Assembly: GCF_000004075.3 (NCBI RefSeq)
Contig: NC_026659.2
Coordinates: 2,852,001 to 2,916,000, forward strand
From: Cucumis sativus
Taxonomy: Eukaryota; Streptophyta; Magnoliopsida; Cucurbitales; Cucurbitaceae
DNA: 64,000 nt
Direction of reading: 5' to 3'
A program made the translations under genes and the position numbers. Every line of letters starts with the position of its first letter. The first letter of the stretch is position 1. Positions 24,680 through 56,805 of this stretch are shown here, in pieces. A model generated the notes under the pieces. The model saw only the letters and a program-made list of their open reading frames with translations. It was not told the origin of the DNA and made no database searches.

Positions 24680-25751
24680 AACACATTTGAAAGTATTTAA
24701 TGAGAATCCTCCCTAAAATAAATTTTAGTCCATGTATTTAGAATTTATTTAATTTTAATTTTTGTTCATTCAAATGTTTCATTTCAATGTGACTTTTAAT
24801 AAATCTTAAATTTAATCACTAGTTTATTATAAATTTTTTATTACATTTTATTATTTATTAGCATTTTCACAATGACTTTTATTAACATGTTGTATTTCCT
24901 TGGGTGAAAGTTATTATAATCATTTAATCAATTTTAATAGTAAAAAAATATTGAAAGACTAAACTTAATATTTACTAAATTATACCTTAACTAAAATTGA
25001 ACAATGGAAAGTATAATAACTAAAACTAAACAAATTTCAAACTAAAACGACCAAAATAGTTATTATATATATATAATCAAATTAATTATGATATTATAGA
25101 GCATCAATAAAAATAAAACAACTCAATTTTATTGAATATGAATAAGTAGTTTAATTACAAACTATGAACTAAGAGCATAAAAGCTAACCCATGATACAAA
25201 ATATGTCCAACATCATTCACAAAGTAAAATTAATATACTAACAGCTTTGTCACGAACAAGTCTTCAAATTTAAACATGTACAGCTACTCCTTCCAACTCT
25301 CGAGACTTGGTGTATCTTGACGATTTTTTTCTTTGATTCTATTAGCAAATTAAAATCAAAATATTATCTACCAAAGTATAAGATACACATACTACTATCT
25401 AAAAATAATAATTATATGACCATGAAGTTCACAAGTGAACAGTTACATCAAATTTGATAGTGTAATTAATTGAGGAGGGAAAAATTGATTACACAATGGC
25501 TCAACACATATTTCTTATGTAAATACTTGCATGCATAAACATTCTTTTTCTTTTCTTTTCTTTGGTCTCCCTCTCTACAAGTTATGTTCATATATTATGC
25601 ATAGAAGAAAACTTATATGCTCTCAGATGTGCCAGAGCTACGCAAATCAATGTTCATGCATATCTAATTGTTTCCAACCTTTCATGCATGTGATTGAAAA
25701 AATTAATTATATAGAACAAAAAAAATTCCACGTACCTAATTATTAGTTCAA

Positions 25752-26225
25752 TCAAGCCGACTCCAATAATTTTGCAAATTCTCTCATGGAATCGAGATTT
25801 TCATTGAAATCAAAGGCGGGATTGATCTTGTCAAGAGCTTCCCTTAGAGCTTGTCTTTGTTCTTGTATTGAGCATATATTTGGAGTCGCACCAACGATGT
25901 ATTCATGTTTATTAGAATCATTATTGGAATTATGAAGTTTTTGTTGAGCCTTCAAAATAGTGCTTCCAAATTTGGCTTTTAGCACTTCAACTCGAGCAGC
26001 CCGTCTTGGTGACAACACTACAATAGTGTTTGGCTTTATGGGCAATACCGCAATGTTATTCTTTGGTGATGGGCATTTGAAGTTTGCCAAATCATGATCA
26101 CTATTGGATTCCTTTATTTGGTGAATGTTATATGGTGTCATACCCGTTGTAACTTTGGTTGAAAGAACTTTGGATTTTAACGCATGATAATCTATATATC
26201 TTCGTTTTGTTTGCATCATCTTCAT
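25752..26225 (-). CDS. bromodomain-less GTE-like protein, copy A (157 aa)
   Basis: An intact 157-codon frame starting MKMMQTKRRYIDYH. An SPRRAARVEVLKAKFGST segment is followed by ILKAQQKL, then after a polar linker REALDKINPAFDFNENLD and SMREFAKLLESA. I recognise the two conserved blocks as close in pattern to the C-terminal part of plant GTE (BET-type bromodomain) factors, where SPEK..RAALLKSRFADTILKAQ and REAARLALQKME..ENxxxL..LE occur. No bromodomain precedes it. Upstream an acceptor (TTAG before 26240) and a donor (GTGAGT after 26997) suggest an untranslated first exon at about 26997-27180 and a 5' intron. Homology is by pattern memory. Function is unknown; it might act as a decoy partner of GTE factors. 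Of the four copies this one is the most diverged in sequence. Confidence 0.6.
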   Translation of the reverse strand: MKMMQTKRRYIDYHALKSKVLSTKVTTGMTPYNIHQIKESNSDHDLANFKCPSPKNNIAVLPIKPNTIVVLSPRRAARVEVLKAKFGSTILKAQQKLHNSNNDSNKHEYIVGATPNICSIQEQRQALREALDKINPAFDFNENLDSMREFAKLLESA

Positions 26226-26531
26226 CTTTTTGAATGCTTCCTAAGAGAAAATGTGACGAACAAAATTGCAAGATAATTAGATGAAGAAAAAAAAAAACCA
26301 CACAAAGAAATGATTGGGAGGACGTATGAAACTGTGATGAAATAATATGAAACTTCATTTTATTCATATATATTTGTAATATACTTTAGTTTTAATTTAT
26401 ACGGATTTTTTGTTTTGATATTTAGTAATTAAACTAGCATGTGTATATAGTTTTTATACATTTGAACCAGAAATTTTCAAGGAAGATTTGGATATATGTC
26501 CGCTTAAATTTGGGTGCAAATTTTCAAATTT

Positions 26532-26672
26532 TGGTATAAGCAATGTTTTGAATTTTCACGTTCAAAGCATATCAATAAAAGACTTAATTTCACAAAAATT
26601 ATAATATAAGCAATGTTTTAAATTTTCATGTTGAAAGCATATCAATAAAAGACTTAATTTCACAAAAATTAT
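26532..26672. repeat. 70-bp tandem duplication in the 5' intron of GTE-like copy A
   Basis: A block of about 70 bases (TATAAGCAATGTTTTGAATT onwards to CACAAAAATTATAA) occurs twice in a row, at about 26532 and 26602. Units B and C carry it once; unit D has a different small duplication at the same place. Confidence 0.7.
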
Positions 26673-26786
26673 AATGAAAATATGCTTAAAATATCCTCGA
26701 GAAATGCAACAAACAGCTTAGATGGAGTTTTATGTATATGGAAACAAAATGCAACCTAATTAAACTTAAAGAAAAAGAAACCAACG

Positions 26787-26950
26787 TTAGATTGATCTAG
26801 TGGTATAAATGCCATAACTAACTAAGAGATCATAGGTTGAATAGGGTTGGCTTAGTGGTAAAAATGTCATAACTAACTAAGAGGTCATGGGTTGAATCTA
26901 TGGTGCCTACCTACCCAAGAATTAATTTTCCATGGGTTTCCTTGAGTACA
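26787..26950 (+). repeat. SINE-like sequence with two tRNA-like heads, unit A
   Basis: Two related segments each carry an A-box-like string (GATCTAGTGG, then TGGCTTAGTGG), a CATAACTAACTAAGAG core and a B-box-like GGTTGAAT. They are followed by a shared tail (GTGCCTACCTACC ... CCATGGGTTTCCTTGAGTA). The plus-strand orientation is opposite to the host GTE-like gene. The tRNA-derived origin is inferred from the box motifs. Confidence 0.55.
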
Positions 26951-27200
26951 CTAACATATATAAAAAAGCCTTAAAGAAAAGGAAAGAAAAACTCACCGAA
27001 ATTAATATGGAGAAATGTTCGAGAGAAGGTGCGAATTATGAAGAAAAGAATCCGCTTCTTGACACTCTTTAGAGAGAAGAGAGAAAAATAAAAAATTCAC
27101 CTCGTAGAGAGAAAAATCAAGAATCCAGCACGTCGAGAAAAATATGAAAAATCGAGTCTTATTTATATGTATATATATATTTTTTTGAACCAATATTAAG

Positions 27201-27349
27201 TTTCCCGCCAAATCCTAAATTATAATTATTGTCTTTTTATGCTAAATTTTTTGAATATAAACAAACAAACAAACTTTATGACTAAAGATTGGATTTAATA
27301 ATTTTTCAATATATGTTTATTTTCGGACATCGGATCGTTTCGCGCCAAA
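27201..27349. promoter_or_regulatory. two E2F-type sites in the shared GTE-like/MSH4 promoter, unit A
   Basis: TTTCCCGCCAAA at 27201-27212 and TTTCGCGCCAAA at 27338-27349. Both contain the plant E2F consensus TTTSSCGC, and the second reads as a site on either strand. They stand between the GTE-like first exon (-) and the MSH4 leader remnant (+). Confidence 0.6.
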
Positions 27350-27359
27350 CTCATGAGCC

Positions 27360-28143
27360 CATAACATTTCCACACTCAACGCTGGTAGTGCTCAATCGCC
27401 CATAACAGTGTTTAATTATACTAAAAAATTTAAAATTTAAAGTTTAAAATAGTAAATTTTATTTTTTAAGATATTCAAATATTATAAGTTGGTAAAGTAA
27501 AATATTTGTAATTATGTAATAGGAATAATTTATACATAACAAAAGAAAATTTAATTACAAACCAAAATATCTATTTAAAAATTTTAAATTATACCTAGCT
27601 TAGAAATTAAAGATTTTCGTCATATTTTGATTCTTTTAAATGGAATTATGGATTAAAACATCTTTTTATTCTTTTGTTTAGAAAAAAATTGTATTATTCT
27701 AATTGTAACCACTATTGTTCGATAAAATCTAACAAAATATAACGATTACAAGTCTTCTCAAAGAAAGTGTATCTGCCCTTACCCACTATTTCCTTTTACA
27801 GTGTCAGAGCGTCATTTTGCTAAAAACTGCCTTTGAGGCATTGTCTTTACTCTCAAAGGTAATATTCTTTCTAAATATATAGAAGACTCTTCAGAACTCC
27901 AGCACGTACTTGTGATGGGTTCGTTCAAAATTTTAGGTACTTAAGGAAGCAAAGAGTTTTCTGCTTGCAAACATTTACAAATATGTTTGTGAAAACGAAA
28001 AATATGCAAACATTAGAAAAAGGTAACTTGGCTCCTGCCAATGATTATTACACAATCCTAATAATATGATCTTTTTGACTAGCAAACCAATCTTTCTTAA
28101 ATATTTAAATTAACTTATTTTGAATAACACTCATATAACACAT
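27360..28143 (+). pseudogene. MSH4: MSH4 fragment, unit A (leader scrap, exons 10-11)
   Basis: 27351-27400 matches the MSH4 leader of unit D (44391-44437). An unrelated AT-rich stretch of about 340 bases follows (27401-27744). From about 27745 it resumes in MSH4 intron 8, jumps into exon 10 (KTAFEALSLLSK-like, 27815-27858) and covers exon 11 (27938-28025) and the start of intron 11. Then it runs without a gap into isomerase sequence near 28143. Exons 1-9 and 12-24 are gone, so it cannot make an MSH4 protein. Confidence 0.85.
27401..27744. other. unassigned AT-rich insertion inside the unit A MSH4 remnant
   Basis: This segment has no counterpart in units B-D at the same place. It has no coding frame and no clear terminal repeats. 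It may be a transposon insertion or filler DNA from the deletion that removed MSH4 exons 1-9. Confidence 0.4.
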
Positions 28144-28528
28144 TGAATTTCGTTATTTCCATTCCAATTATTTGGGTTGTGTACCTGACTTTGGTCCTCT
28201 CTAATCTCAGCGAATACGAGAAGCTCGGATCCCACACCCTAATTGGCCTACCTTCCTCTTATTCCACACGCTTCGTGGAATCTGAATAAATGAAAACCAA
28301 ATATTCCATCATAATTGTCGGCGACAACTTCGGTTGTGGTTCTTCACGGGAGCACGTGCCGGTTGTGTTGGGAGTGTCCGGCGCCGTGGCGGTTGTGGCT
28401 GAATCTTATGCGCATATTTTCCTCACAGCAAACTCCGTGGCAACCAGAGAGATTTATCCATTGGAATCAGAGACTAGGATTTCACGTATTCAGAGAGATT
28501 TATCCATTGGAATCAGAGACTAGGATTT
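28144..28528 (+). pseudogene. isopropylmalate isomerase small-subunit fragment, unit A
   Basis: It matches the intact gene at 56156-56632 with an internal deletion of 56179-56324 that removes the GDNIDTD region. The stretch from YLTLVPSN-like to LESETRI-like remains. Relative to the intact gene, VESEE is broken by a stop (GAATAAATG near 28285). The FFRNS site reads FLTANS through a short insertion shared by all three fragments. A 46-bp tandem duplication (period from 28445 to 28491) repeats the end including the junction. No transit peptide and no C terminus remain. Confidence 0.9.
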
Positions 28529-28536
28529 CACGTATT
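28445..28536. repeat. 46-bp tandem duplication across the duplication junction, unit A
   Basis: CAGAGAGATTTATCCATTGG and the following 26 bases occur twice, at 28445 and 28491. The repeat includes the foreign CACGTATT that follows the isomerase break point, so it arose after the block was truncated. Confidence 0.8.
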
Positions 28537-30131
28537 TTAAAATTAAACAATAATAATAATAACTAGAAAGTAATGCGCTTTGGTAAGCAAAATAATAATA
28601 ATAAAAAAAAAACTATTTTAAACACATAAATAGACTAAAACATGAAATGATATGATCGACATGTTTTTCATTCTTGAAGACCGACAATATATATATCTTC
28701 TTAAATTATATTTAAAAATAAATTAACAATTATTTATTCTTAACTAAATGTTAGTGGATAAGTAAAACTTAACTTTATGATTTATGAATATATAGTATGA
28801 AATACATTCAAACTAGAATTTAAATATTTAATATGCTATCAATATTATAGAACTTCGTTTTTCAAAAGAGCCAAAAAAGAACTTACAATAATATATTCCT
28901 AAATATGAGGAATATCATCTTCTTTAAAAAGAAGATATTTAAGGAAAATCTTTGACTCCTTATTAAAAGATATTGATAAATGATCATAAACATAAAGAAG
29001 ATATTTTACATTTCTTTAAATAAAATAAAACTAATTTCATATTTATCAAAAAAAAAAATCTAACAAAACACGTTTGAAAGTAACTAACAAGAATTGACAA
29101 AATAAATTTTAATCCATGTCCTATTTAGAGTTGATTTAATTTTAGTTCTTCTCTATTCAAATTTTATCGATTTTCAATAAATCTTAAATTTAATCTTTCC
29201 AATACTAGTTTATCAATAAAATTTCTGATTGCCTTTTGTTTTCTATTATAATGCATTTTCACTCTGAGTTTTAAAAATATATTAATATATTGTGTTCTCT
29301 TGCATGAAAAATATTAACTTCGGGAGACTACATTTAAGTACATACATTCATCACTAAAATTAAACATTTGAAACTAAAGTAAAATGGCTAAAATTGAACC
29401 ATAGTTTTTATTTTGTTTTACTTTATTTCATTTATTGGGAGCTCTTTTTCTAATGAATGGAACAAGTAAGCAAAAGGTAATATAACTTACACTTCAAAAT
29501 GTGAAGTTTTAAGCATATATACATACATATATATATATAATCAAATTATTTAAGAGGTATGAATAAAAAGAATTAATTAAGGAGTTTACTTAATATATAT
29601 TTGATTAAGGTTATGAAAATTAAATATAAAATAAAATAACAACTCAATTTTATTGAATATGAATAAGTAGTTTAATTACAAACTATACGGGGTAAAGAGC
29701 CTATAAAAAAAGGTAACCGATAATACAAAAGATGTTCTAATTAACATCATCACGAACTAATCTGAAAACTACTTCACTGGGGAACATAAGTCTTCAAATC
29801 TTCAAGTTTAAACACGTACACCCGCTCCTTCCAACTCTTGACCATTATTTTCTTTGATTCTATTACCAAATTAGAATTACATATTATTTTCTATTTGAAA
29901 GAAAAATCACATATAAATTTATAATTGCAATTTAAATGAAAGATCACGAAACATTCTTTTAAGTAAATACATATACTTAGGACTTTGAAGAAAAAAACTT
30001 GTATATATATTCCCAACTGTCCTAGAGCTACGTAAATCATTCATGCAAACCTAATTGCTTCTAACATTTCATGCACGTGCCATTCAAAAAATTAATTACA
30101 TAGAGATAAAATAATTAAATTGCACATTACC

Positions 30132-30620
30132 TCAAGCGCCCGACTCCAATATCTTTTCAAATTCTCTCATGGAATCGAGATTCTCGTTGAAATTAAACAC
30201 TGGGTTGATCTTGTCAAGAGCTTCCCTTGAAGCTCGTTTTTGTTCTTGTAATATTGAGCTTGTCTTTGGAGTGGCACCAACAACAGCATATTCATACTTG
30301 TTAGAATCATTATTAGAATTTTGAAGTTTTTGTTGAGCCTTCAAAATGGTGCTTCCAAATTTGGCTTTTAACACTTCAACTCGTGCAGCCCGTCTTGGTG
30401 ACAACACTACAATAGTAGTGTTTGGCTTTATGGGCAATAGCTCAATGTTATTCTTCTTTGGTGATGGGCATTTGAAGTTTGCCAATTCACGATCACTCTT
30501 GGATTCCTTTCTTTGGTAAATGTTATATGGTTTCATGGCCGTTGTAACTTTGGTTGAAAGAACTTTGGGTTTTAACACATGATAATCTACATATCTCCGT
30601 TTTGTTTGCATCATCTTCAT
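30132..30620 (-). CDS. bromodomain-less GTE-like protein, copy B (162 aa)
   Basis: An intact 162-residue frame from MKMMQTKRRYVDYH. Residues 73-99 hold the LSPRRAARVEVLKAKF ... ILKAQQKL block and residues 125-158 the REALDKINP ... NENLDSMREFEKIL block. Both resemble the C-terminal part of plant GTE factors (pattern memory, not a search). No bromodomain is present here or upstream. The ATG was preferred over one at 30707, because an acceptor (CTCTCAG ending at 30636) puts the upstream codons in the 5' intron. The untranslated first exon probably begins near 31640 and ends at the GTGAGC donor by 31483. By eye it differs from copy C at five residues. An open frame in all four units argues for recent origin or selection; expression is unknown. 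Confidence 0.6.
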   Translation of the reverse strand: MKMMQTKRRYVDYHVLKPKVLSTKVTTAMKPYNIYQRKESKSDRELANFKCPSPKKNNIELLPIKPNTTIVVLSPRRAARVEVLKAKFGSTILKAQQKLQNSNNDSNKYEYAVVGATPKTSSILQEQKRASREALDKINPVFNFNENLDSMREFEKILESGA

Positions 30621-31196
30621 CTTTTTGAATGCTTGCTGAGAGAAAACGTGACAAAAAGATGTCAAGCAAAATATATATATATATTCCATAATTACTATTG
30701 GATGCATTGTTATTATATATTAGAAACAAAATTACAAGATAATTAAACTTAGAAGAAGAAAAAAAAATCCACACGTGAAACTGTGGTGAAATTAGAGACA
30801 ATGTTGAAATTATGATGTAACATGAGACTTCGTTTTATTCATATATATTTGAAATATACTTTAGTTTTAGATTTTACTGATTTTTTGTTTTGATATTTAG
30901 TAATTGAACTTGGATATGTATATTAGTTTTTATACATTTCAACCAGAAATTTACAAGGAAAAATTGGAAATATGTCCGCTTAAATATGGGTGCAAATTTT
31001 CAAATTTTGGTATTAAGCAACGTTTTAAATTTTCACGTTTGAAAGCAACATCAATTAAAGATCTTAATTTCACAAAAATTATGATGGAAATATACTTAAA
31101 ATATCTTCAAGAAATGCAACAAACAGCTTAAGGGAGTTTTATGTATATGGAAACACAATACAACCTAGTTAAACTTAAAGAAAAAGAAATCATCAT

Positions 31197-31436
31197 TAGA
31201 TTAATCTAATGGTATAAATGCCATAACTAACTAAGAGGTCATAACTAACTAAGAGGTCATGAGTTGAATCTAAGGTTGGCTTAGTGGTAAAAAGGTCATA
31301 ACTAACTAAGAGGTCATGAGTTGAATCTAAGGTTGGCTTAATGGTAAAAATGTCATAACTAACTAAGAGGTCATGGGTTGAATCTACGGTGCCTACCTAC
31401 CCAACAATTAATTTTCCATGGGTTTCCTTGAGTACA
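31197..31436 (+). repeat. SINE-like minisatellite, 57-bp period, unit B
   Basis: The block GGTTGGCTTAGTGGTAAAAA through GAGGTCATGAGTTGAATCTA recurs with a 57-base period (for example from 31270 to 31327). It is preceded by a shorter duplicated CATAACTAACTAAGAGGT piece. Each unit carries an A-box match (TGGCTTAGTGG at 31277-31287) and a weak B box. Units A and D hold only two segments, so the tRNA-like head has expanded here. Confidence 0.65.
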
Positions 31437-31560
31437 CTAACATATATAAAAAAGCCTTAAAGAAAAGGAAAGAAAAGCTCACCGAAATTAATATGGAGAA
31501 ATGTTCGAGAGAAGGTGCGAATTATGAAGAAAAGAATCCGCCTCTTGACACTCTTTAGCT

Positions 31561-31645
31561 AAGAGAGAAAAATCAAGAATCCACCTCGTAGAGAGAAAAA
31601 TCAAGAATCCACCTCGTAGGGAGAAAAATCAAGAATCCAACACGT
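31561..31645. repeat. 28-bp tandem repeats in the leader of GTE-like copy B
   Basis: GAGAGAAAAATCAAGAATCC followed by ACCTCGTA is repeated three times with small changes (last copy AACACGTT). It falls in the predicted untranslated first exon. Unit C has the same array (37981-38065). Units A and D have fewer or less regular copies. Confidence 0.7.
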
Positions 31646-31713
31646 TAAGAGAAATATGAAGAACGGGGCCTTATTTGTGTAGATATATATTTTCTTTTTG
31701 AACCAATATTAAG

Positions 31714-31865
31714 TTTCCCGCCAAATCCTAAATTGCAATTATTGTCTTTTTATGCTAAAAATTTCGAATATAAACAAACAAACAAACTTTATGACTAAAG
31801 ATTGGATTTAGTAATTTTTCAATATATATATTTATTTTCGGAGGTTGGGATCCTTTGGCGCCAAA
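31714..31865. promoter_or_regulatory. two E2F-type sites, unit B promoter
   Basis: TTTCCCGCCAAA at 31714-31725 and TTTGGCGCCAAA at 31854-31865. The second is a perfect palindrome with an E2F core on each strand. Confidence 0.6.
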
Positions 31866-31889
31866 CTCATGAGCACATAATATTTACTA

Positions 31890-33824
31890 CATTTTCTTAT
31901 TTTGCCTAAAACTAGAAAATACAGGCCGTGCATGATGAATTTATATGTACCGATGCTTTTTGTGCATTTCCTGTAGCTTTATCTATTAACCATATATATG
32001 TACACAAATAATAGTCATCCTTTTCCTTCCTTACATATAAATTTTCATGCGACTTGACAGCTCATCAATTCAAAAGGTATATGATTTATAATCGCTTTAT
32101 GTCTTTGAAGCACATAAGAAACAACGATGAATGGCCTAACTGAATTTGCAAACTTATCGTATCGGTTACTCTATCTGTACTGATTCTAGAGAGTAGTCAT
32201 TCTTACAATCATGGAACGTCTTAGAAATGATAAAAGTATATATAACCGAAAAGGTTCAGTTATTTAATTATAACGCTAAAAATTTCATGTCATAAGATAA
32301 TGAATGGCTTATAGTCTCCACACCTCCACCTTTTTTGGTTCAGAATTTTGTGATCCTCGTTTGATTTTGCCATGAAAGTTATGTTGTAGGATGCAGCAAA
32401 ACTCTTAAGTACGTGTGTTTGTCCCATTTTCAGCTGAATGTTGGAAACAAGTCTGCTGCAGGAGAATGCTATATACGAACAGAAATTTGCCTGCAAGGTC
32501 ATCTAACATGCTTAGTTATATAGTAAATCTTAAATCATGAGCTACCAATGATTTAGTTCACCTATATCTCTGAATTTAAAGTTTCACAAGGACCAGTAAA
32601 CTACATGGTAAAAAATGTATTTGACACCCACTCAAATGCAGGACTGGTGGATGCCATAAGAGAAGACGTCTCTATGCTAACACTGCTGGCAGAAGTCTTG
32701 TGTCTCTTAGATATGATTGTCAATTCATTTGCACATACAATATCAACAAAGCCTATCGATCGATATACTAGGCCAAACTTTACAGGTAAGCAAACATGTT
32801 TCCCTGCCTTGCATTCGGTCCTGATGCTTCTGAATGCAACAACAAAACTGACAATGATTGATTTTTCTTGATACATATAGAGAATGGCCCGATGGCAATT
32901 GAAGCTGCGAGACACCCAATCTTAGAAAGTATACACAATGATTTCGTTGTACGTATAACTTCCTTGCCAATTGCTAATACTATAGCAATATAGGATTGTT
33001 TTGTATGCAGACTCTTTTTCTTGTTTTTTTTATGGAAATTTGTGTTTTTTCTTTGCAGGCTAATAGCATATTTCTATCTGAAGCATCCAACATGATAATC
33101 GTCATGGGTCCAAATATGTAAGAACTCGCCCCATGACGTGATTTAGATTGCACGAAAAATTGTTGATTTATTTTTCCCGTTTCACCTTGGCTAACTTCTT
33201 TGAAATAAAATAATTCAGAAAAGAGAATAAGCTAATGATCTATACCTAATAACTCAAAAGGGAGAGCACTTACGAACTAAAACTGCATCGTTTGAGATGC
33301 TAAAAGCACCCCATCATCTTCGTGGCACCTTTGTCAAAAACTAGTCACGGAACTAATACATGAGGGAAAGTTATAAGCTTAGCCATCACCGGAAACACAA
33401 GATCGATGTTGTTCCATTAGTATCAAATAGGCATAATAAAAACAGTGTTATAATGTAAGAGACGCTCTGAATATCCCTTCTTAATAATAATAATAATAAT
33501 ATCATATCATATTATAAATAATCTTGGAAACATTGAAAAATATTTAATTGTGGCACATATATATATTCACCGAAACGCCATCTTTTCGGTTTTTTGTAAA
33601 ACAGTATAATTTCCACAAATGTCCAATCCAAGGGGAAAAACATTATACAATGATTTCATTGATACTCAGGAGAATGATCTGAATTTAGATAAAGGTATAT
33701 GTAATTTGAATATCGTTTAAACATCTCATACACAGTTAAGCTAAGATTCAGGTTGCCATTGTACAACTTGGAAGTCTTTGGATGTCATGCTGTAACGAAC
33801 TACATCTTCTTGCAGGAGTGGAAA
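31890..33824 (+). pseudogene. MSH4: MSH4 fragment, unit B (exons 15-18 and start of 19)
   Basis: The leader joins directly into intron 1 sequence through a TAATATTT junction, so exon 1 is lost. After 31980 the sequence jumps to intron 14 of MSH4. Exons 15 (near 32433-32496), 16 (32641-32784), 17 (32880-32947) and 18 (33060-33118) keep their splice sites and frames with few changes. Intron 18 follows, then 15-20 bases of exon 19, which meet isomerase sequence at GAGTACCT (33825-33832). In the MSH4 frame the P-loop reads up to SGKST and then a TGA. Without exons 1-14 and 20-24 it is not functional. Confidence 0.88.
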
Positions 33825-34126
33825 GAGTACCTGACTTTGATCCCCTCTAATCTCGGTGAATACGAGAAGCTCCGATCCTACGCCCTAATTGGCCTCCCTT
33901 CTTCTTATTCACACGCTTCGTGGAATCTGAAGAAATGAAAACCAAATATTCCATCATAATTGTCGGCGACAACTTCAGCTGTGGTTCTTCATGGGAGCAC
34001 GCGCCGATTGCGTTGGGAGCGTCCGGCGTCATGGCGGTAGTGGCTGAATCTTATGGGCATATTTCTTCACAGCAAACTCCGTGGCAACCAGAGATATTTA
34101 TCCATTGGAATCGGAGACTAGGATTT
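33825..34126 (+). pseudogene. isopropylmalate isomerase small-subunit fragment, unit B
   Basis: It begins at the EYLTLVPSN region, fused to MSH4 exon 19 through eight shared bases, and ends at the same base as the other fragments (GGATTT, matching 56632). A lost C in TATTCCACACG shifts the frame. FGCGSSREH reads FSCGSSWEH, and the FFRNS site carries the shared short insertion. Confidence 0.9.
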
Positions 34127-34299
34127 TTGCGTATTTTAAAATTAAAAAAAAATAGAAAATAATGCTTTGGTAAGCAAAATGATAATAATAAAAGTATAAC
34201 TATTTTAAACACTTAAATAGACTAAATGATGAAGTAATATGATCGACATATTTTTCCTTCTTGAAGACCTACAATATATACCTATCTTCTTAAAGATAA

Positions 34300-35170
34300 A
34301 AAAGTATTTAAAAAGATCCCTAAACACAGTATGAGAATCTTTTCTAACAACAACAATCTTCAAGAGCATAAAATTCCAATAGGAAATTTAAGTTAATCAA
34401 CAACATCATCAACATTTTATCAACCAACATATTGAGTCAATTTCTCCCCCAATTTTGCATTCTCCACGGACTGAGTCATAGTTTATTTGCAACGGTGGTA
34501 TCCTCATAATAGCATCTTCTTTCAAATTAAGAGAGAAAAAACTCTACTTTCAGTCATATAACTTGAACATCCATTGTCGATTGAAATGAGAAAGGATTTA
34601 ATTTATACGAGCCTTTCAATATGAAAAATTTTATCCACATCTAGAACTGGAGGATGAGTTGGTGATCCACCTTCCTTGATCGACACTACTGAAAACTCAA
34701 TGAACCTGCGCCAACCCGCTCTAATATCAATTGAAAAACAGGTAATAGATGAGGTTAAATGCCCTTTAGCTATATCACAAATATTTAACTCTAGGAATAA
34801 CTAGTGTACATGGAAGAAAAATAACACAGTGCACTTGAGTAACCCAATTCGATAAATAAGACCTACGTCTGAGAAGCTTCTTTGCTCAGATAAGAAATAT
34901 TATTGAGATTCAAAAGTTTGTAACTTAACCCAAAGTTAAGTTAACAAGTTATCACCATAACTTAATCGTATAAACACATACTAAACTCAGGCTCTCCTGG
35001 ACGGTGAACTTGTATCTCCTCGAAGACGAATTCAGGAGGCTCCCCTAAATTCATTGATCGCACTACAATTATTTGTGCCTTCATTCATATTTCTTATCAA
35101 TTGATACGCTGTCAAATCCCTTGACGGTTTTCAATAACTTATCATAATGCAAAAGGTAACCGGTATACTT
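34300..35170 (-). mobile_element. decayed copia-like LTR retroelement remnant
   Basis: This segment interrupts sequence that is continuous in units B and D. Read on the minus strand, an LTR-like part (above 34735) contains the CAGACGTAGGTC ... GTGTTATTTTTCTTCC string typical of copia LTR ends. It is followed by TGATATTAGAGC (34718-34729 complement), two mismatches from the initiator-Met primer-binding site TGGTATCAGAGC. The remaining part would be leader or gag. There is no intact frame. The LTR identity rests on remembered motifs. Confidence 0.55.
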
Positions 35171-36554
35171 TTGTGGATAAGTAAGACTAACTTTATGGTT
35201 TATGAATATATAGTATGAAATAAATTTAAATTATAATTTAAATATTTAATATGCTACCAATATTAAAGAACTTCTTTTTTCAAATTGTCAAAAAAGAACT
35301 TACAATAAAATATTCCTAAATATGAGGAATATCATCTCCTTTAAAAATGAGATATTTAAGGAAGATCTTTTGAATCTTTATTAAAAGATATTGATAAATG
35401 ATCCTAAACATAAAAGAAGATATTTCACATTTTTTAAATAAAAATAAAACTAATTGCATATTTGTCAAAAAAAAAAAAATCTAACAAAACATTAATTCAC
35501 TAAATTAATGAGAATTGACAAAATAAATTTTAGTCCATGTCCTATCTAGAGTTGATTTAATTTTAGTTATTCTCTGTTCAAATTTTATCAAATTTTATGA
35601 GACTTTCAATAAATGTTAAGTTTAGTCTTTCCTATACTAGTTTATCAATAAAATTTCTCATTGCTATTAACATGCATTTTCACTATGAATTTTAAAAATA
35701 TATTAATATATTGTGTTCTCTTGCATGAAAATTATTAACTTGGGGAGACTACATTTAAGATATACTCAAATTACATACATTATTCATCACTAAAATACAT
35801 TTGAAATTAAAGTAAAATGTCTAAAATTGAACCATAGTTTTTATTTTGTTTTACTTTATTTCATTTATTGGGAGCTCTTTTCCTAACGAATGGAACAAGC
35901 AAAAGGTAATATAACTTACACTTGAAAATGTGAGGTTTTAAGCATATATACATATATATAGAATCAAATTATGTAAGAGGTTATGAATAAAAAGAATTAA
36001 TTAAGGAGTTTACTTAATATATATTTGATTAATGTTCTGAAAATTAAATATAAAATAAAATAACAACTCAATTTTATTGAATACTAATAAGTAGTTTAAT
36101 TACAAACTATATGTCAGAGCATATAAAAAAGGTAACCCATAATACAAAAGATGTTCTAATTAACATCATCACGAACTAATCTGAAAACTACTTCACTCGG
36201 GAACATAAGTCTTCAAATCTTCAAGTTTAAACACGTACACCCGCTCCTTCCAACTCTTGACCATTATTTTCTTTGATTCTATTACCAAATTAGAATTACA
36301 TATTATTTTATATTTGAAAGAAAAATCACATATAAATTTATAATTACAATTTAAATGAAAGATCACGAAACATTCTTTTAAGTAAATACATATACTTAGG
36401 ACTTTGAAGAAAAAAACTTGTATATATATTCCCAACTGTCCTAGAGCTAAGTAAATCATTCATGCAAACCTAATTGCTTCTAACATTTCATGCACGTGCC
36501 ATTCAAAAAATTAATTACATAGAGATAAGATAATTAAATTGCATATTACCTCAA

Positions 36555-37856: not shown

Positions 37857-37980
37857 CTAACATATATAAAAAAGCCTTAAAGAAAAGGAAAGAAAAGCTC
37901 ACCGAAATTAATATGGAGAAATGTTCGAGAGAAGGTGCGAATTATGAAGAAAAGAATCCGCCTCTTGACACTCTTTAGCT

Positions 37981-44385: not shown

Positions 44386-44453
44386 CTCATGAGCCCATAA
44401 TATTTCCACACTCAACGCTGGTAGTGCTCAATCGGCCACGCACAAGAGAAAGA

Positions 44454-47400: not shown

Positions 47401-50400
47401 GAGTTGCCACTTACAAAGAGTATGGTGGAGCGAGATGAACTATGCTGGGGCTGCTATAGAACGAACATGTGTGAAAAATCTTTTGTTTCTCCGATTGAGC
47501 TCCTCTCAATTGTTACATGAAGGATCTTCTTATATTGAACTCACTATGACCCCTATTGCAGCATCTTCTTTCATTGAGCTCAGTATGGCCAAGTAATGCA
47601 TCAGCCATGCATTTTAATTAGCTGATGCATTTTAATCAATTCTGTAAAATCAAATATTTCATACCGTCCGTTGAAATTATGTACTTTTTTCTTCATAAAT
47701 TTCCTGGATTAATTTTCGACTTCACCCTCCAGTTGGCTAGAAAATTAAGTTTTGTTGGATTGTGTCTAAAGCCCTACATTGCCTAAATAAAGGGAAGATC
47801 TTTGAGATATAAGTGAGGTGAGGGCCAACCATCTCTATTGATATGAGGTCTTTGGGTGAAATCAAAAGTAAAGTCATTCTTTCCAACAACTTTCTTATAT
47901 AATGAGATAATGATTAAATAATTCAATTTGTTCTTGTATAGTTTCTATAGGTGCCAGATACTTCATCGATAAGGCGCTGCTTCCTAACCTTTTCTTTTTC
48001 TTTTCTAGGATGAATTGATGAGCAATGAACAATTATTCTTTGGGCTTTCTCAAGCTCTCCGTAAATTTCCTAAAGAGACTGGTAAGTTTGCAGCTACAGC
48101 AATGGTCAAGTGCAAAAAGAGTGTAAGAAAAAAATGTGAACTAAAAATCCAAGTTAGAATTTTGTACATAATCGTCTTTCCATGTTTCTTATTCAGACAG
48201 AGTACTTTGTCACTTCTGCTTCAAGCAAAAGAAAGTTACAAATGAAGTTTTGCATCCTAGTGATGCTAAAAAGAGCCAAAATTTGATATCTAGCATTATT
48301 CTGCTAAAAACTGCCCTTGAGGCATTGCCTTTACTCTCGAAGGTAATATTCTTTCCAAATATATAGAAGGCTATTCAAAAGTCCAGCACGTACTTGTGAT
48401 GGGTTTGTTCAACATTTCAGGTACTTAAGGAAGCAAAGAGTTTTCTGCTTGCAAACATTTACAAATCTATTTGCGAAAACGAAAAATATACAAACATTAG
48501 AAAGAGGTAACTTGGATCCTGCCAATGATTACACAGTCCTAATAATATGATCTTTTTGACTAGTAAACCAATCTTTCTTAAATATTTAAATTAACTTATT
48601 TTGAATAACACTGCAGAAGCCCTTAGTAAAGTGAATATCTATTTCTTTCATTTTAAAGAAGTTTTCCTGTTGCAGGATTGGAGAAGTGATCGACGAAGAC
48701 GTTCTTCATGCAAGGGTTCCTTTTATTGCTCGCACTCAACAATGTTTTGCAGTTAAGGCTGGAATCGATGGCCTGTTGGATATTGCAAGAAGGACGTTCT
48801 GTGATACTAGTGAAGGTTTTTGTCCTGTTAATAAATTGAATATTTCGGTTAACATCTTTGTTTTAGATGATAGTCATATTATGAATTAAAAATCACTGTT
48901 CATGCCAGCTATACATAATCTTGCTAACAAATATCGAGAAGAGTACAAGTTGTCCAACTTAAAACTGCCATTTAATAATAGGCAAGGGTTTTACTTGAGC
49001 ATTCCTCATAAAGATGTACAAGGAAAGCTTCCTAACAAGTTTATTCAGGTTAAGCATGACACTTACTTTCTTGTTGATGTCTTTGCAATTTTTTGAGTCT
49101 CACCTTCTTACCAGTTACCACAAAATTCAGGTCTTGAAGCACGGGAACAACATACGATGTTCTACCCTGGAACTTGCTTCTGTGAGTACTTCTGTTACTG
49201 TACGATGTTAACCACATATCAATGATCTAATAGGAGATAGTCATTATCTATTACCATATACATGTATGTACAGATAATAGTCATACTTTTCCTTTCTCAC
49301 ATATAAATTTTCGTGCGAGTTGACAGCTCATCAATTCAAAAGGTATATGGTTTGTAATCTCTTTATGTCTTTGAAGCACACAAGAAACAACAATGAAGGG
49401 CCTAACTGAATTTGCAAAATTATTGTATCGGTTACTCTATCTGTACTCATTGTAGAGGGTTGTCATTCTTACAATCATGGAACGTCTTAGAAATGATAAA
49501 AGTATATAACCGAAAAGGTTCGGTCATTTAACTATAACGCTAAAAATTTCATGTCATAAGATAATGCATGGCTTATAGTTCCACACCTCCACCTTTTTTT
49601 GGTTCAAACTTTTGCGATCCTCGTTTGATTTTGCCATGAAAATTATGTTGTAGGATGCAGCAAAATCTTAGTGTCTTTTTCCCATTTTCAGCTGAATGTT
49701 AGAAACAAGTCTGCTGCAGGAGAATGCTATATACGAACAGAAATTTGCCTGGAAGGTCATCTCACATGCTTAGTTATATAGTAAATCTTCAATCATGAGC
49801 TACCAATGATTTAGTTCACCTATATCTCTGAATTTAAAGTTTAACGAGGACCAGTAAACTACATGGTAAAAAAATGTATTTGGTACCCAATCAAATGCAG
49901 GACTGGTGGATGCCATAAGAGAGGACGTCTCTATGCTAACACTGCTCGCAGAAGTCTTGTGTCTTTTAGATATGATTGTCAATTCATTTGCACATACAAT
50001 ATCAACAAAGCCTGTTGATCGATATACTAGGCCAAACTTTACAGGTAAGCAAACATGTTTTCCTGCCTTTCATTCGGTCCTGATGTTTCTGAATGCAACA
50101 ACAAAACTGACAATGATTGATTTTTCTTGATACATATAGAGAATGGCCCGATGGCAATTGAAGCTGCTAGACACCCAATCCTAGAAAGTATACACAATGA
50201 TTTCGTTGTACGTATAACTTCCTTGCCAATTGCTAATACTATAGCAATATAGGATTGTCTTGTATGTAGACTCTTTTTCTTGTCTTTTTTATGGAAATTT
50301 GAGTTTTTTCTTTGCAGGCTAATAGCATATTTCTATCGGAAGCATCCAACATGATAATCGTCATGGGTCCAAATATGTAAGAACTCGCCCCATGAAGTGA

Positions 50401-53400
50401 TTTAGATTGCACAAAAAATTGTTGATTTATTTTTCTTGTTTCATCTTGGCTAACTTCTTTGAAATAAAATAATTCAGAAAAGAGAATAAGGTAATGATCT
50501 ATAAAGTGATAGTTACCTAATAACTCAAAAGGGAGAGCACTTACGAACTAAAACTGCAGTTTGAGATGCTAAAAGCACCCCATCATCTTCGTGGCACCTT
50601 TGTCAAAAACTACTCGCGAAACTAATACATGAGGGAAAATTATAAGCCTATCCATCATTGGAAACACAAGATCAATGTTGTTCCATTAGTATCAAATAGA
50701 CATAATAAATACAGTGTAATAATTGTAAGAGACGCTCTGAATATCTCTTCTTAATAATAATAATAATATCATATCATATTATAAATAATCTTGGAAACAT
50801 TGAAAAATATTTAATTGTGGCACATATATATATTCACTGAGACGCCATCTTTTCTGTTTTTTGTAAAACAATATAATTTCCACAAATGTCCAATCCAAGG
50901 GGAAAAACATTATACAATGATTTCATTGATACTCAGGAGAATGATCTGAATTTAGGTAAAGGTATATGTAATTTGAATATCGTTTAAACATCTCATAGAC
51001 AGTTAAGCCAGGGGAAAATTAATTAACCCTTCCAGTTAAGATTCAGGTTGCCATTGTACAACTTGGAAGTCTTTAGATGTCATGCTGTAACAAACTACAT
51101 TTTCTTGCAGGAGTGGAAAGAGTACCTATCTTCAACAAATGTGCCTTCTAGTTATTCTTGCTCAAATTGGATGTTATGTTCCAGCACATTTCTCAACCTT
51201 GAGAGTTGTTGATCGCATATTCACACGAATGGGCACAGATGATAGTCTAGAGTCCAACTCCAGCACAGTAATTGTTTTCCTACATGATTCATACTTATTT
51301 TCTTTTACAAAGAAAGCATATTTTCATTATACTTTACGGTTTGCAGTTCATGACAGAGATGAAGGAAACGGCTTTTGTTATGCAGAATGTCTCCCAAAGG
51401 TAATTTAATCTACTGTGAACCTGAACTTGAAGAATCCTCAAAATGCTCGACATTTTATTGAAACATATTGTTCACTGGAATGTAGGAGTCTCGTTGTCGT
51501 GGATGAACTTGGGAGGGCAACTTCTTCCTCTGATGGATTTGCAATTGCATGGAGCTGCTGTGAATATCTTTTGACACTGAAAGCGTGCATATAATATCCT
51601 TACCAACTATTCTACTTGATTGCCAAAGATGCAAATAATATTTTAGATAAAGCGTGCATGCATACTGTTTTCATCATAGTAATCAATAAGGTTTAAAATG
51701 CATCAACCTAGTCATATCTCAACTGGTGAAGCAATATATTATCAACCTAAAGGTCGAGCTTCAAATCTTCAGTGTCTAGTCCTTTTTTGTCCCATGTAAA
51801 ATTCATTGCTCATCATTTCTTATTCTAGTTTAATCACTAGTATGTCCATAGATATGGAAAAACTTTATGCTTGTCAAAATAATAACATGTAGGATCCATA
51901 AACTAAATATATATCATTTAATTATGATAAATTTGAGAGTAGGTATTACAATAGTAGTAAAATTTATTCAGATTTGGGTTCACAAGCGAACTTCAACAAA
52001 ATGTACTTACCGCTTCTTTGTCTGCCTCAGCTATACCATATTTGCCACTCATATGGAGGGCCTATCAGAGCTGGCAACCATCTATCCAAACGTAAAAATT
52101 CTTCACTTCCATGTGGATATAAGGAATCACCGTTTGGATTTCAAGGTACTGTTTTCCAGTTCTGTTAGTCTATAATCCCTTTTATCGCCTTTTTTCTGAC
52201 TGAAAGTTTGCATCGACGATTAGTTTCAACTAAAGGACGGAATAAGACATGTACCACACTATGGCCTTTTATTAGCAGAAGTGGCAGGATTGCCAAGCTC
52301 GGTTATTGAAACTGCAAGAGACATTACTTCCAGGATCAAGGAGAAGGTAATTAAGTCTTTGATAGAATTGTTATGTTTTAGTGAAACCAAAATTTACCAA
52401 TTCATGAACATATTTCTCTTGCCCTCTGTCTCCAAGTAGCGAATTTGACCAAGAAAGAGGATTGAGGGTCTGTTTAGATTGCCCAGGGAATTTTTTCTCT
52501 TTCAAAAAGGTCATTTTTATTTTAACTTTTTTTATAAGAACTATTTAAAATAAAATTTGAAATTATTTTAAAAACTATTTTGATTGGTTGAACACTTTAG
52601 TTTTTTTTTCAAATTAAACCAAACCCACTGTAACTATTTAGGTTTAGATCACTAGCAGAAAACAGTACTTTACCTTTCCAACATCATGCTCTTTTAGGCT
52701 TCATTTAAAGATGAACAAATGAAACCCCTCCATAAGTAAACTTCTTCATTTGATGAATGGGATTCAGAAGATCATTCCCACTTTTGCAATTTGTAAACCG
52801 CGTCTTCTTGAAACTTTAAATTGTTTCCACATAACATTTCAACAAAATTAACTGTTGGTAATGTTGCCTTCACGTTTCTTGTAGTAACGTCTAAATGCTT
52901 AATTAAATTTTGACGACAAAAACAAGTATTTAAAAACTATGTTTTTAAAAGTTATCTTGTTTTTATTTTTCTTAAAAAGAAAACATCGGTGAAAAGTAGA
53001 TTAAAAGAAAAAAAGCCCTTATAGGTGGAAGTAGTGTTTATAAACTTGTTTGGATGAGTATTGAAAAAATGGAGTTAACGAATGCAAATTACATAACCTA
53101 AGAAACAACCGTTTAGGTTCCATGTAGTCTAACTCTATTTCCCACTTATGGGGCAGGATCCATTATTTTTGTGCTCTAATATTCAATTTGTGTTTGCAAA
53201 ATTATGATAATCTTAGATAAAAAAAATGTAATATTATCCAGGAAGAAAGACGAATGGAGATAAACCACTTGCAGTATCATCCGATCAGAATGACTTATAA
53301 TGTGGCTCAACGTCTAATATGCTTGAAATACTCCAGCCACGATGAAGATTCAGTACGAGAAGCATTACGAAATCTTAAAGAGGGCTACATTAGTGGCAGG

Positions 53401-53406
53401 CTCTAA
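44454..53406 (+). CDS. MSH4: DNA mismatch repair protein homologue MSH4 (meiotic)
   Basis: Twenty-four exons join in phase to 789 residues: 44454-44510, 45030-45233, 45309-45344, 45454-45566, 45789-45834, 46414-46460, 46555-46662, 46940-47015, 48009-48081, 48197-48342, 48421-48506, 48676-48815, 48909-49048, 49131-49181, 49692-49755, 49901-50044, 50140-50207, 50318-50376, 51111-51267, 51347-51399, 51486-51584, 52031-52145, 52224-52346, 53242-53406. Known members work with MSH5 as a sliding clamp that stabilises recombination intermediates for class I crossovers. The ATPase domain has the P-loop GPNMSGKST (550-558), Walker B VVVDELGR (626-633) and ATH (661-663). DELGRATSSSDG with Ala in place of the usual Gly is characteristic of MSH4. 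The N-terminal mismatch-binding MutS I domain is absent, as expected. Length matches plant MSH4 (about 790). All splice sites are GT..AG. Confidence 0.95.
51690..51800 (+). mobile_element. tRNA-derived SINE-like copy in MSH4 intron 21
   Basis: CATATCTCAACTGGTGAAGC resembles the A-box region of tRNA-Lys-type SINEs. GAGCTTCAAATCTTC resembles a decayed B box about 40 bases downstream. Short and diverged; no tail or target duplication established. Confidence 0.4.
52462..53060. repeat. possible MITE-like sequence in MSH4 intron 23
   Basis: The intron contains GGGTCTGTTTAGATTGCCC at about 52465 and an AACTTGTTTGGATGAG string near 53043. Both recall the ends of common plant non-autonomous elements. 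The two strings are in the same orientation and I found no clean inverted pair, so the limits are uncertain. Confidence 0.25.
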
Positions 53407-56058
53407 TACTTGGTAAGTTCTATATACACAGGTACAACACGATTAATAGTAATTTCATACTTGTTTATAATATTAAATTTGTCTTTATCAATCAACTAAG
53501 CTTTTGGGTCTATTGATTATTTAAGATCATGCAAAAACAACTTTTCACTTGCAACTACGAACTTCATGTTTGAACAGAAAAAGAGAACGAAAAAGGCGAG
53601 GGAATCCAGAAAAGGAGGAGAAAAAAAAGCGCATAATGAGTCTTTAAGGTAATCAAATAACACCTTTGATACTATCATAAAAAGTTTGCCAGCCTTGGCC
53701 TACTTGAAAACAGAGAATGCTTAGGTTTTTTCTTTCGTCCTAAAATTACCAATTCATGATAAATTCGCCAATGAAAATTTTGAAACACAACTTCACTAAG
53801 ACCTAATAGCAGAGCATGTTAATACTTGTGTGATAGTTATTAACCATAAATAAGCCATCATTTTACTGAAGAAAAAAAAAGCAACATTGGTGATTGGTTA
53901 TATGGATGATTTTAGATTGCTTAACATAATGCATGAACAGAAGTCAAGATTTGGGTCAAAAGTAACAGCTAGGACTAAAATGAGGTTAAGGAGGGTTGGT
54001 TTGGACCTTGGCCTAAGATAATATGGTGATTGGCATCAGCTTGGTCGAGATCGAACTTAAATGTCTAATAAAGTGTCCTGAGGAGGTCATGATTCTAAAC
54101 TTAGAAAAATGAAACTAATAGAAAATTTACAAAAGTCAATATAAATGACCTTGAACTTCTAAATGATAATCTCGGAAAAAATTGGAACAAATAATAATAA
54201 TAACAATTAAGAAGCATGAACCGTTGACAAAAGCAGGAAGAGAATTTGCTTGGTTTGGTGACTAATATTTAGATGAATTTAGCTACTCTTAGGAAGTATC
54301 CAATAGTTATACGCAAATTTCACGTAGCATATGAAGCAAGTGCATCATAATACCTCATAGCCTACGGGGATTTGTCATCTTGATTAAACACAATGTGAAG
54401 ATGATGGTGTGTATCAGTGTATGTGTTTCCAGCTTGTTCTAATGATGATAGGCGATAGTGTGGTATAGTTCATGTACTTAATTTAATTGTTACGATGTAT
54501 ACTACCAAATATTTAATATATATTTAATGTACAAAATCAAATATCAAGAAATGATTGTGACTTAATAGGGTAAGATCACGTCTAAACTTGATAGTCTAAA
54601 CTTGATAATCGCAATAATGAAGAAGGAAGAGAATAACAAATTATTACGCTTTTTTTTTTTTTTGGAAAACTCCTAGATGAATTAGGGTAAAAAGCACGAA
54701 AAAGGAAAAATGAATTATACTATATAAAATAGGAGTTACAAATTTTTGTTTCTTACGAAGAAATACCAAGCTCTCTTACAAGACAAAACTTTAGCTATTA
54801 TATCTTTCAAATTTTGTTTACTTGTGGGAGATTTTGGGATAGTTTGTCAACCATGAGTCTTCTATTTATAGTTGAAAGAAACTTGGTCATCAAGCAAATC
54901 CAATGACACACATTGTCCTTGATCAATGTGAAAGATCCAATGACTTTGAATTATCTTTGCTCAACATGAAAGATCTAATGGTCATAAATTGATCTAATGT
55001 ACAAAGTGTAAGATCCAATGACCTAATATTGTCTTCAAGAAACTTCTTGAATACTCGGATAACTCCTTGAAGAATCACCATAGATAAATCAATCTTGAAT
55101 GTCATGAAATAAAGAATTGTCCTTATGTTCGTACATGAACTCCTTCAATATAACATTTTAAATCACATCGCTTCTCTAGTAACTTGTATAGCTACAACAT
55201 ATTTTGATTGAAGTATTGAAACCCAACATATAGCTCTACTAGCAAGAGTGAAGGCATATATGTGGGGGTGAATTTACTTCTATCAAGATAAAGTCACACC
55301 CTCCATTATACAATGTAACTTTTCCAGACCATTTAATTCAATTAGTAATTAGAGTTATTTTGCAAATTTTGGAGACAAATATCTTTTGAAAATCTCATAC
55401 CCATGTTAAAGAAAAAAACGTGTATTTTACCCAAAATTTAAAAAATCTTAAACTATTTAAATGACTTCAATCATATCTTTGAATTTTGAAAAGTTTTATT
55501 TTAAATCTCCTATTTGTTGTTTGCAAACTTTGTAAGTTTATTTAGAGATAGAAATTTTATATTTACTCAGAGAATAACTCTAAATACATAGATGAAGATA
55601 AATTAAAACACACAATTATAAACTATACCTATTATTACCTTCGTCCTTAACGCCATGGACTCAAATCTTCATTCTTTAATTCACCATATATTTTTTTTCT
55701 ATCTTAGTCTCCAAATTTACTTTCCTCCTAAACTTCGACCCCCCAAATTTGCTTTCTTTCATTTACGACATTCTTTTTTAAAATTCTTTCCTTTACAATG
55801 TTCTTATTTACTTTTTTGAACTCTATACCTGAAATTTACTTTGATAGCGTGTTTAGATTTGTTCATAAACAAGGTATAAATTGAAAACTTTATAAATATT
55901 AGGGCATTAAGGTTTAATTGAAAATGAAACCACAATTATAGTCATTAATCACAGTATTTTTACTTTCAAATTTAGGCATTTTTCACAAAGCTAATTACGC
56001 CATAAAACACCAAAAGGAGACCCCATTCGATCTCACATCTTCTCGGCCAGAAACGACC
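53407..56058. other. spacer between MSH4 and the isomerase gene
   Basis: The first few hundred bases are MSH4 3' flank; a GA-rich stretch at 53577-53635 may be a 3' UTR segment. Apart from the LTR-like element at 54660-55229 I see no gene. The last 80 bases are the isomerase leader. This spacer is missing from units A-C. Confidence 0.5.
54660..55229 (-). mobile_element. possible solo LTR
   Basis: On the minus strand the segment starts TGTTGGGTTTC and ends AGTTTTCCA, so it is bounded by TG..CA. A TATA-like CTATAAATAGA lies in its middle (about 54865), as LTR promoters have. A 15-base T run abuts the other end (54649-54663). I could not find matching 5-bp target duplications, nor a primer-binding site or polypurine tract next to it. 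Confidence 0.3.
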
Positions 56059-56805
56059 ATGGCGGCTTCACTGTTTCTTTCTCAAAGCCCTATCGCCATT
56101 TCCACTCCCCGATCTTCACCTTCCATTTCCCTTCTCTCTTCTCCTCAAACCCTCAAATTCCGTTCTTCCCATTCCAATTTCCTTTTTAATCTATCCATCG
56201 CCGTTTCCCACGCGCCGTCGCGTCTTGCAACTATCATCCCTCGAGCTACCGCTTCACCGTCCTCCACCGCATTTCACGGCCTCTGCTATGTCGTCGGAGA
56301 CAACATCGACACTGACCAGATTATTCCTGCTGAGTACCTGACTTTGGTCCCCTCTAATCCCAGCGAATATGAGAAGCTCGGATCCTACGCCCTAATTGGC
56401 CTCCCTTCCTCTTATTCCACACGCTACGTGGAATCTGAAGAAATGAAAACCAAATATTCCATCATAATTGCCGGCGACAACTTCGGGTGTGGTTCTTCAC
56501 GGGAGCATGCGCCGGTTGCGTTGGGAGCGTCCGGCGCCGTGGCGGTAGTTGCTGAGTCTTATGCGCGTATTTTCTTCAGAAACTCCGTGGCAACTGGAGA
56601 GATTTATCCATTGGAATCGGAGACTAGGATTTGTGAAGAATGTAAGACCGGCGACGTGGTGACAATTGAGCTCGCTGAAAGCCGTTTGATCAACCATACT
56701 ACGGGGAAAGAATACAAGCTTAAGCCTATTGGGGATGCAGGTCCTGTTATCGAAGCAGGTGGAATTTTCGCATATGCAAGGAAAACGGGTATGATTTCAA
56801 GCTAA
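56059..56805 (+). CDS. 3-isopropylmalate dehydratase small subunit, chloroplastic
   Basis: Intronless, 248 residues. It pairs with the large LeuC-type subunit to interconvert 2- and 3-isopropylmalate in leucine synthesis; in some plants a second small subunit serves glucosinolate chain elongation. Residues 1 to about 68 are Ser/Pro/Arg-rich with few acidic residues, as in a plastid transit peptide. The aconitase-swivel core follows: VVGDNIDTDQIIPAEYL (78-94) and [14 protein letters not shown] (139-152), then VVAESYARIFFRNS and, near the end, IEAGGIFAYARKTGM. The Fe-S cluster is held by the large subunit, so its absence here is expected. Lack of introns is normal for this gene in plants. This is the only intact copy; three truncated copies lie 15-28 kb upstream in the same direction. 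Confidence 0.96.
   Translation: MAASLFLSQSPIAISTPRSSPSISLLSSPQTLKFRSSHSNFLFNLSIAVSHAPSRLATIIPRATASPSSTAFHGLCYVVGDNIDTDQIIPAEYLTLVPSNPSEYEKLGSYALIGLPSSYSTRYVESEEMKTKYSIIIAGDNFGCGSSREHAPVALGASGAVAVVAESYARIFFRNSVATGEIYPLESETRICEECKTGDVVTIELAESRLINHTTGKEYKLKPIGDAGPVIEAGGIFAYARKTGMISS

Follow-up and report, generated by a model that had tools for sequence, protein, structure and literature searches.

The passages available from the work cited here describe several systems that come close to the one studied in this report. After polyploidy, MSH4 reportedly reverts systematically to a single copy, and in Brassica napus a partial, four-exon copy lies in tandem with one MSH4 gene (BnaA.MSH4) and is not transcribed in meiosis (PMC6541637). 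Circle-mediated duplications have been described in the human genome (PMC7188851), and truncated copies of FOLT2 silence FOLT1 in some Arabidopsis accessions (PMC8042742). Here we analyze a tandem array of cucumber (Cucumis sativus), in which a block composed of a small GTE-like open reading frame (ORF), the gene MSH4, and the gene for the isopropylmalate isomerase small subunit recurs in four units. The array lies in a window of 64,000 nucleotides, by which we mean the whole stretch of DNA analyzed (contig C5:2852001-2916000; NC_026659.2). Genome-wide searches covered 226.6 Mb in 88 records, and the place counts they gave are lower bounds. None of the listed titles or abstract beginnings in the literature on MSH4 with cucumber, Cucumis or pseudogene describes the array.

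Results

Four head-to-tail units, one of them intact

Self-BLAST of the window gave parallel diagonals and resolved 32 kb into four head-to-tail units, named A to D (Table 1). The longest self-match, between B and C, spans 3267 columns at 94.9% identity (E=0), which is far beyond chance. Unit boundaries are good to within tens of bases. Remnants were mapped using D as the reference, and positions written in the form D48611 refer to this unit. An earlier note on this DNA had proposed a four-unit tandem array in which the rightmost block alone is intact. Both points were borne out, the first by the dot-plot check, run here as self-BLAST: D holds complete MSH4 and isomerase genes, and A, B, and C are eroded and appear to be nonfunctional. 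The four tandem units are not the whole set, however, as two further copies of the segment were found on contig C2.

The MSH4 model of D, which was built by hand, has 23 GT-AG introns, and its 789 codons are free of stops. The encoded protein matches the Pfam domains MutS III, IV, and V, all above cut-off. We take the gene to be MSH4, and not another MutS homologue, on the basis of its 24-exon structure and plant MSH4 sequence; the choice of exons was guided by Arabidopsis MSH4. The names that had been given to the two genes proved correct. Searched against the genome, the MSH4 protein matched at 42 places. Of these, 17 lie in D, 9 in the eroded units (1 in A, 3 in B, 5 in C), and 7 in the C2 copies; the other 9 are distant relatives or partial. 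No second complete MSH4 exon set was found among these 42 places. A MutS_III family search of the genome matched at five places and at none in the window, because the search worked exon by exon. The isomerase protein was found at eight places and was complete only in D, the others being the fragments in A, B, C, and C2; used as a DNA query, the isomerase fragment gave five places.

Table 1. Features of the array and genes flanking it (positions in the window)
Feature	Position	Strand	Description
Unit A	24679..28490	+	head with GTE-like ORF; 51/146 bp of MSH4 exon 10 and complete exon 11; internal isomerase fragment (313/747 bp of coding sequence)
Unit B	28491..34163	+	head with GTE-like ORF; MSH4 exons 15-18 and 22/157 bp of exon 19; internal isomerase fragment (304/747 bp of coding sequence)
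Unit C	34164..41194	+	head with GTE-like ORF, split by 853-bp interspersed repeat; 185/204 bp of MSH4 exon 2, 53/108 bp of exon 7, exons 8-11; internal isomerase fragment (316/747 bp of coding sequence)
Unit D	41195..56805	+	complete unit; self-BLAST extent 41195-56632
MSH4, intact	44454..53406	+	24 exons, 789 codons
Isopropylmalate isomerase small subunit, intact	56056..56805	+	single exon, 249 codons
GTE-like ORF, unit A	25755..26240	-	
GTE-like ORF, unit B	30135..30719	-	
GTE-like ORF, unit C	36558..37112	-	
GTE-like ORF, unit D	42682..43458	-	1-bp deletion near C-terminus
Tail/head junction A|B	28440..28600	.	isomerase coding region fused to unit head; identical fusion at B|C (~34130-34180) and C|D (~41170-41200)
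Deletion junction of A	28131..28178	.	D48611/48612 to D56320 with filler; common to C (40835-40861) and the left C2 copy
Exon-1 deletions of B	31879..31981	.	29-bp relic of D44546-44574, then D44690-44767, then jump to D49244
Private deletion junction of B	33825..33837	.	D51132 to D56332; two local alignments overlapping by 13 bp
Interspersed repeat, unit A	27404..27711	+	between head and tail
Interspersed repeat, unit C	34311..35163	+	inserted in head, 853 bp
Auxin-canalisation/PH protein	4393-6214		flanking gene; Pfam
Phosphatidylserine decarboxylase	12485-12760		flanking gene; Pfam, below cut-off
GFO/IDH/MocA oxidoreductase	16402-17643		flanking gene; Pfam
Ribosomal protein L15	21349-22068		flanking gene; Pfam
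AIM24	59974-61931		flanking gene; Pfam, below cut-off

Between MSH4 and the isomerase gene of D, a repetitive stretch of ~400-500 bp (window 54556-55087) has 26 partial matches elsewhere in the genome.

The eroded units share part of their damage

None of A, B, and C retains MSH4 exons 1, 3-6, 12-14, or 20-24, and in all three the isomerase gene is without either of its ends. The fusion of tail to head is identical at A|B, B|C, and C|D and in the C2 copy, with an extra short local repeat at A|B, and therefore points to one founding duplication. A deletion that starts in MSH4 intron 11 and ends within the isomerase gene (D48611 to 56316/56320) is common to A, C, and the left C2 copy (c2L), with related filler at the junction that is ~11 bases longer in A. 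The first two exon-1 deletions of B are also present in C and in both C2 arms (c2L and c2R). The 29-bp relic between these deletions was thus retained in four of the five eroded copies (B, C, c2L, and c2R); A lacks the whole stretch. Another deletion, D45283 to 46610, which removed exons 3-6 and part of exon 7, is common to C, c2L, and c2R.

Other damage is private. Unit B has two deletions of its own, one of them with a 13-bp overlap, and A has private losses as well as the interspersed repeat that separates its head from its tail. At four junctions the local alignments overlap by 3, 3, 3, and 13 bp. The earlier note had described three units cut down to differing subsets. Different exons are indeed kept, but the implied independent erosion is contradicted by the deletions shared between B and C and between A and C. 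The common breakpoints and deletions indicate that broken units were themselves copied. Since B is without the deletion common to A and C and yet has others in common with C, sequence was apparently also exchanged between units.

A permuted, mosaic copy on contig C2

Contig C2 contains an inverted repeat with arms of 9.2 kb (7857126-7866283 and 7871599-7880768) that are 98.3% identical over 9193 aligned columns. The array-derived copy, at 7.861-7.867 Mb, corresponds to approximately one C-type unit that is circularly permuted and has a D-like head. In c2L, which comprises the left arm and the adjoining stretch to 7867083, the order is D48279-48611, D56316-56632, the unit head, and then onward with the C-type deletions to D48107/48113. 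On a unit of ~5950 bp its two ends are 166 bp apart; the missing 166 bp cover some of intron 9 and the first bases of exon 10. Ends this close would be expected by chance with a probability of 2.8% (one-sided) or 5.6% (two-sided).

The copy is also mosaic. At sites at which B and C agree and D is different, c2L is D-like in 16/25 cases to the left of ~D42475 and in 12/113 to the right (Fisher P=7.5e-8, with a boundary picked post hoc, after inspection of the data). Over the first five head windows, it differs from D at 20/687 positions, from B at 60/709, and from C at 74/679. Beyond ~D42500 it is mostly B/C-like, which places the switch from D to C/B near D42350-42530. A circle arising by recombination between the heads of C and D would contain this chimera, and the switch in the head fits such an origin.

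Permutation with abutting ends (D48279 versus D48107/48113), the feature expected of circle-mediated duplication, was therefore found. Cs29 of cattle KIT is reportedly a further case of such duplication (Durkin 2012, mentioned within passages of PMC12235870). The low chance of such close ends favors a circle, short of proof, and we lean slightly toward the view that the C2 copy is a unit that was excised as a circle and then reinserted. Some points weigh against this view. Nine of the 25 informative sites in the left-hand part of c2L are not D-like, the tail part is absent from the right C2 arm, and a linear copy of a lost chimeric unit could look alike. The latter origin, the copying of a linear segment that spanned two neighboring units, of which the right-hand unit was chimeric and has since been lost, is possible but appears less probable than the circle. 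Ordinary ectopic copying would suffice for it, and the tail and head of c2L align collinearly with the C|D boundary over 1524 columns (92.8%). However, it leaves the proximity of the ends in permuted coordinates to chance, and it requires an extra lost unit because the modern D does not have the C-type deletions.

The inverted repeat also doubles a long ORF (7858486-7859817 on the minus strand and 7878069-7879401 on the plus strand). This ORF, which presumably resembles a sucrose transporter, is open over 444 codons in the left arm; in the right arm it is broken into two open stretches (295 and 203). At the edges of the array-derived segments lies a 490-bp element (C2 7860809-7861299, 7871086-7871573, and 7876588-7877078). 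The second half of this element is an interspersed repeat present in many copies, and the first half was seen only at these three C2 places among the 40 of 393 candidates that were scored.

Divergence differs from region to region

Kimura two-parameter (K2P) distances were compared for separate regions. For the head, they were 0.040 (B-C), 0.074 (D-B), 0.083 (D-C), and 0.018 (c2L-c2R); for the MSH4 exon 7-9 region, 0.068 (D-C), 0.030 (D-c2L), 0.057 (C-c2L), and 0.0014 (c2L-c2R); for the tail, 0.084 (D-A), 0.090 (D-C), 0.110 (A-C), and 0.037 (C-c2L); and for the region of exons 15-18, 0.052 (D-B). These distances fit no single clock-like tree, in agreement with what exchange between units predicts. 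Overall, the unit heads of B, C, and D differ by 4-8%, and A differs more; one stretch of B and C differs by just 1.1-1.6%. The substitution rate in plants is near 7e-9 per site per year, and at this rate the events involving B, C, D, and C2 would roughly fall within the last several million years. Between the C2 arms, the contrast of the exon 7-9 region with the head hints at gene conversion.

A probable history of early breakage and later exchange

Both the junction common to the head-to-tail units and the mosaic relationships, with deletions that conflict with one branching order, are as expected for tandem duplication followed by exchange. From them we infer the following history, which we consider probable in its main steps (a founding tandem duplication, early breakage, and unequal exchange of broken units). 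The founding event would have been one tandem duplication with one breakpoint within the isomerase small-subunit gene (~D56633) and the other to the left of the GTE-like gene. In the resulting left unit the isomerase gene was truncated at its 3' end, and the right unit, D, was intact. The small GTE-like gene, lying wholly within the duplicated segment, would have been multiplied whole. The redundant MSH4 of the left unit was then presumably broken early by deletions, exon 1 included, and unequal exchange would have multiplied and mixed the broken units to give A, B, and C. Private deletions and repeat insertions may have come later. A chimeric unit with its head from D and its body and tail from C would have left the array, most likely as a circle formed through C/D head recombination; this circle would have been cut close to the junction of MSH4 intron 9 with exon 10 and inserted on C2, where it is now part of the inverted repeat. 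In D, selection would maintain a single functional copy each of MSH4 and of the isomerase gene.

Not everything sits easily with this history. Simple descent cannot account for B, in which the deletion common to A and C is absent, and the history has to rely on exchange. The A-C tail distance exceeds the A-D distance despite that common deletion; constraint on the coding sequence of D may be the reason. In addition, the left part of A is 15.5-18.6% different from the other copies, above its remaining parts.

If, instead, the left units had once been full-length and functional and had each eroded independently after amplification, differing exon subsets and private deletions, such as the two in B, would be expected, and both are seen. 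We nevertheless regard this as unlikely, because the breakpoints in A, C, and c2L are identical and their filler is related, and because B, C, c2L, and c2R all retain the same 29-bp relic. Spread of the shared lesions by gene conversion would itself be exchange between units.

A role in silencing is improbable

The array and the C2 inverted repeat might act as a source of small RNAs against MSH4 and the isomerase gene, as truncated FOLT2 does in Arabidopsis. Exact matches of small-RNA length to the working genes do exist: 418 of 2350 21-mer starts in the MSH4 coding sequence and 51 of 727 in that of the isomerase were found in A, B, C, c2L, or c2R, compared with 0 for the reversed MSH4 coding sequence. 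Moreover, the length and 98.3% identity of the C2 arms would make long double-stranded RNA possible. C-to-T changes, however, show no consistent excess in the eroded units when B, C, and D are compared. Relative to transversions, their rate in the head was ~4.7 in B, 0.7 in C, and 3.0 in D, and in the exon 7-9 region it was 2.0 in C and 2.4 in D; in the head, B alone would fit silencing and C would not. Furthermore, fertility would be expected to suffer if the only MSH4 gene were silenced. We therefore hold an active small-RNA source to be very improbable. Equally improbable is the idea of a natural RNA source that would adjust how much product the only MSH4 and the only complete isomerase small-subunit gene deliver; if it were true, accessions differing at C2 would vary in crossover rate or be partly incompatible.

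Finally, although the sub-read N50 of the presumed assembly is given as 10.8 kb in the passages available (PMC6582320), an artefact made of haplotypes or misjoined copies of one block is hardly credible, because the units differ in sequence, private deletions, and unit-specific interspersed repeats, and the permuted C2 copy has the same fusion and deletions.

The small ORF

The small ORF is open from a shared exon start in A, B, C, D, c2L, and c2R. The claim that it stays open in every block thus stands for all four units, with the reservation that in D the 1-bp deletion replaces the last residues. The name GTE-like fared less well and is weakly supported. In the single exon scanned, the four array ORFs gave no match to the Pfam bromodomain or NET at E<=1 and nothing above the Pfam cut-off. 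Nothing was above cut-off in NCBIfam for the ORFs of A, B, and D, and nothing convincing was found for that of B in the PDB. A 26-amino-acid stretch is 46% identical to GTE-type segments on contigs C1 and C3; from this very small comparison, a derivation from GTE is possible. A RALF identity was considered and set aside, since the match was weak, seen in 2/4 ORFs, and below cut-off (E 0.021 and 0.061).

Genome-wide, the small-ORF protein matched at nine places, seven of which are the six copies (D in two pieces). The other two are diverged remnants: a broken one on contig C6 (C6:20101921-20102328; 53% identity, two stops) and a 40-residue match on contig C7 (C7:14804358-14804477; 50% identity). 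In A, the protein match extends upstream past the open frame across two stops.

In local alignments, the exon indels were in frame in 4/4 cases for A versus B, 5/5 for A versus C, and 5/6 for A versus D. The corresponding numbers for the flanks were 10/55, 9/47, and 11/48 (P 0.0022, 0.0008, and 0.0067; all three comparisons include A and are not independent). Mostly in-frame indels suggest that the exon is, or once was, coding. These values replaced a first contrast (7/8 in the exon versus 5/24 in the flank in frame, P=0.0016) that suffered from misaligned flanks. Similarly, a 31% flank divergence of A versus the others was a global-alignment error. Local alignments gave 8.3-10.4% for the exon, 8.4-9.2% for the flank on the MSH4 side, and 15.5-18.6% for the other side, and these divergences support neither a strongly conserved exon nor an A head much older than the A tail.

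Substitution tests for selection on the ORF were weak. The ratio of nonsynonymous to synonymous changes (dN/dS) ranged from 0.09 to 1.34 across all 15 pairs, with extremes that rest on 4 and 6 changes. It was 0.31-0.49 for A-B, A-C, A-D, B-D, and C-D, with P values of 0.019-0.139 in neutral simulations. Under neutral substitution alone, the chance of all six copies being open was P=0.085. That the ORF has stayed open beside broken neighbors calls for no special mechanism: it is contained entirely in the duplicated segment, was left untouched by the founding break, and belongs to young units.

Discussion

The earlier note had called this duplication and decay unusual. That was overstated, as the return of MSH4 to single copy and a partial tandem copy in Brassica napus are both published, as far as the available passages go (PMC6541637). 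The mechanism of duplication and decay is familiar, and the array is an instructive new instance of it. It extends the reversion of MSH4 to single copy from polyploidy to a small tandem duplication, and the order of the damage can be read in part from common breakpoints. The C2 copy provides a candidate, in a plant, for the movement of a tandem unit as a circle, and an inverted repeat with exact MSH4 matches offers an inexpensive test of whether relics can silence the crossover gene from which they derive.

Comparison with the known systems is again limited to the passages cited. As at FOLT1/FOLT2, truncated copies have exact short matches to the working gene; in contrast to that system, small RNAs, methylation, and incompatibility would be conjectural in the cucumber case, and the C-to-T test gave no consistent support (PMC8042742). 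Like the locus of Brassica napus, the array has truncated MSH4 in tandem with a working 24-exon gene and functional copies that were lost, but here there are three truncated units in a multigene array and dispersed copies on a second contig (PMC6541637). As in duplications by extrachromosomal circular DNA, the segment order is permuted as though a circle had been cut and inserted elsewhere. What would set the C2 copy apart from the described circle-mediated cases is that the putative circle arose in a plant, through recombination of two units within a tandem array that already existed (PMC7188851).

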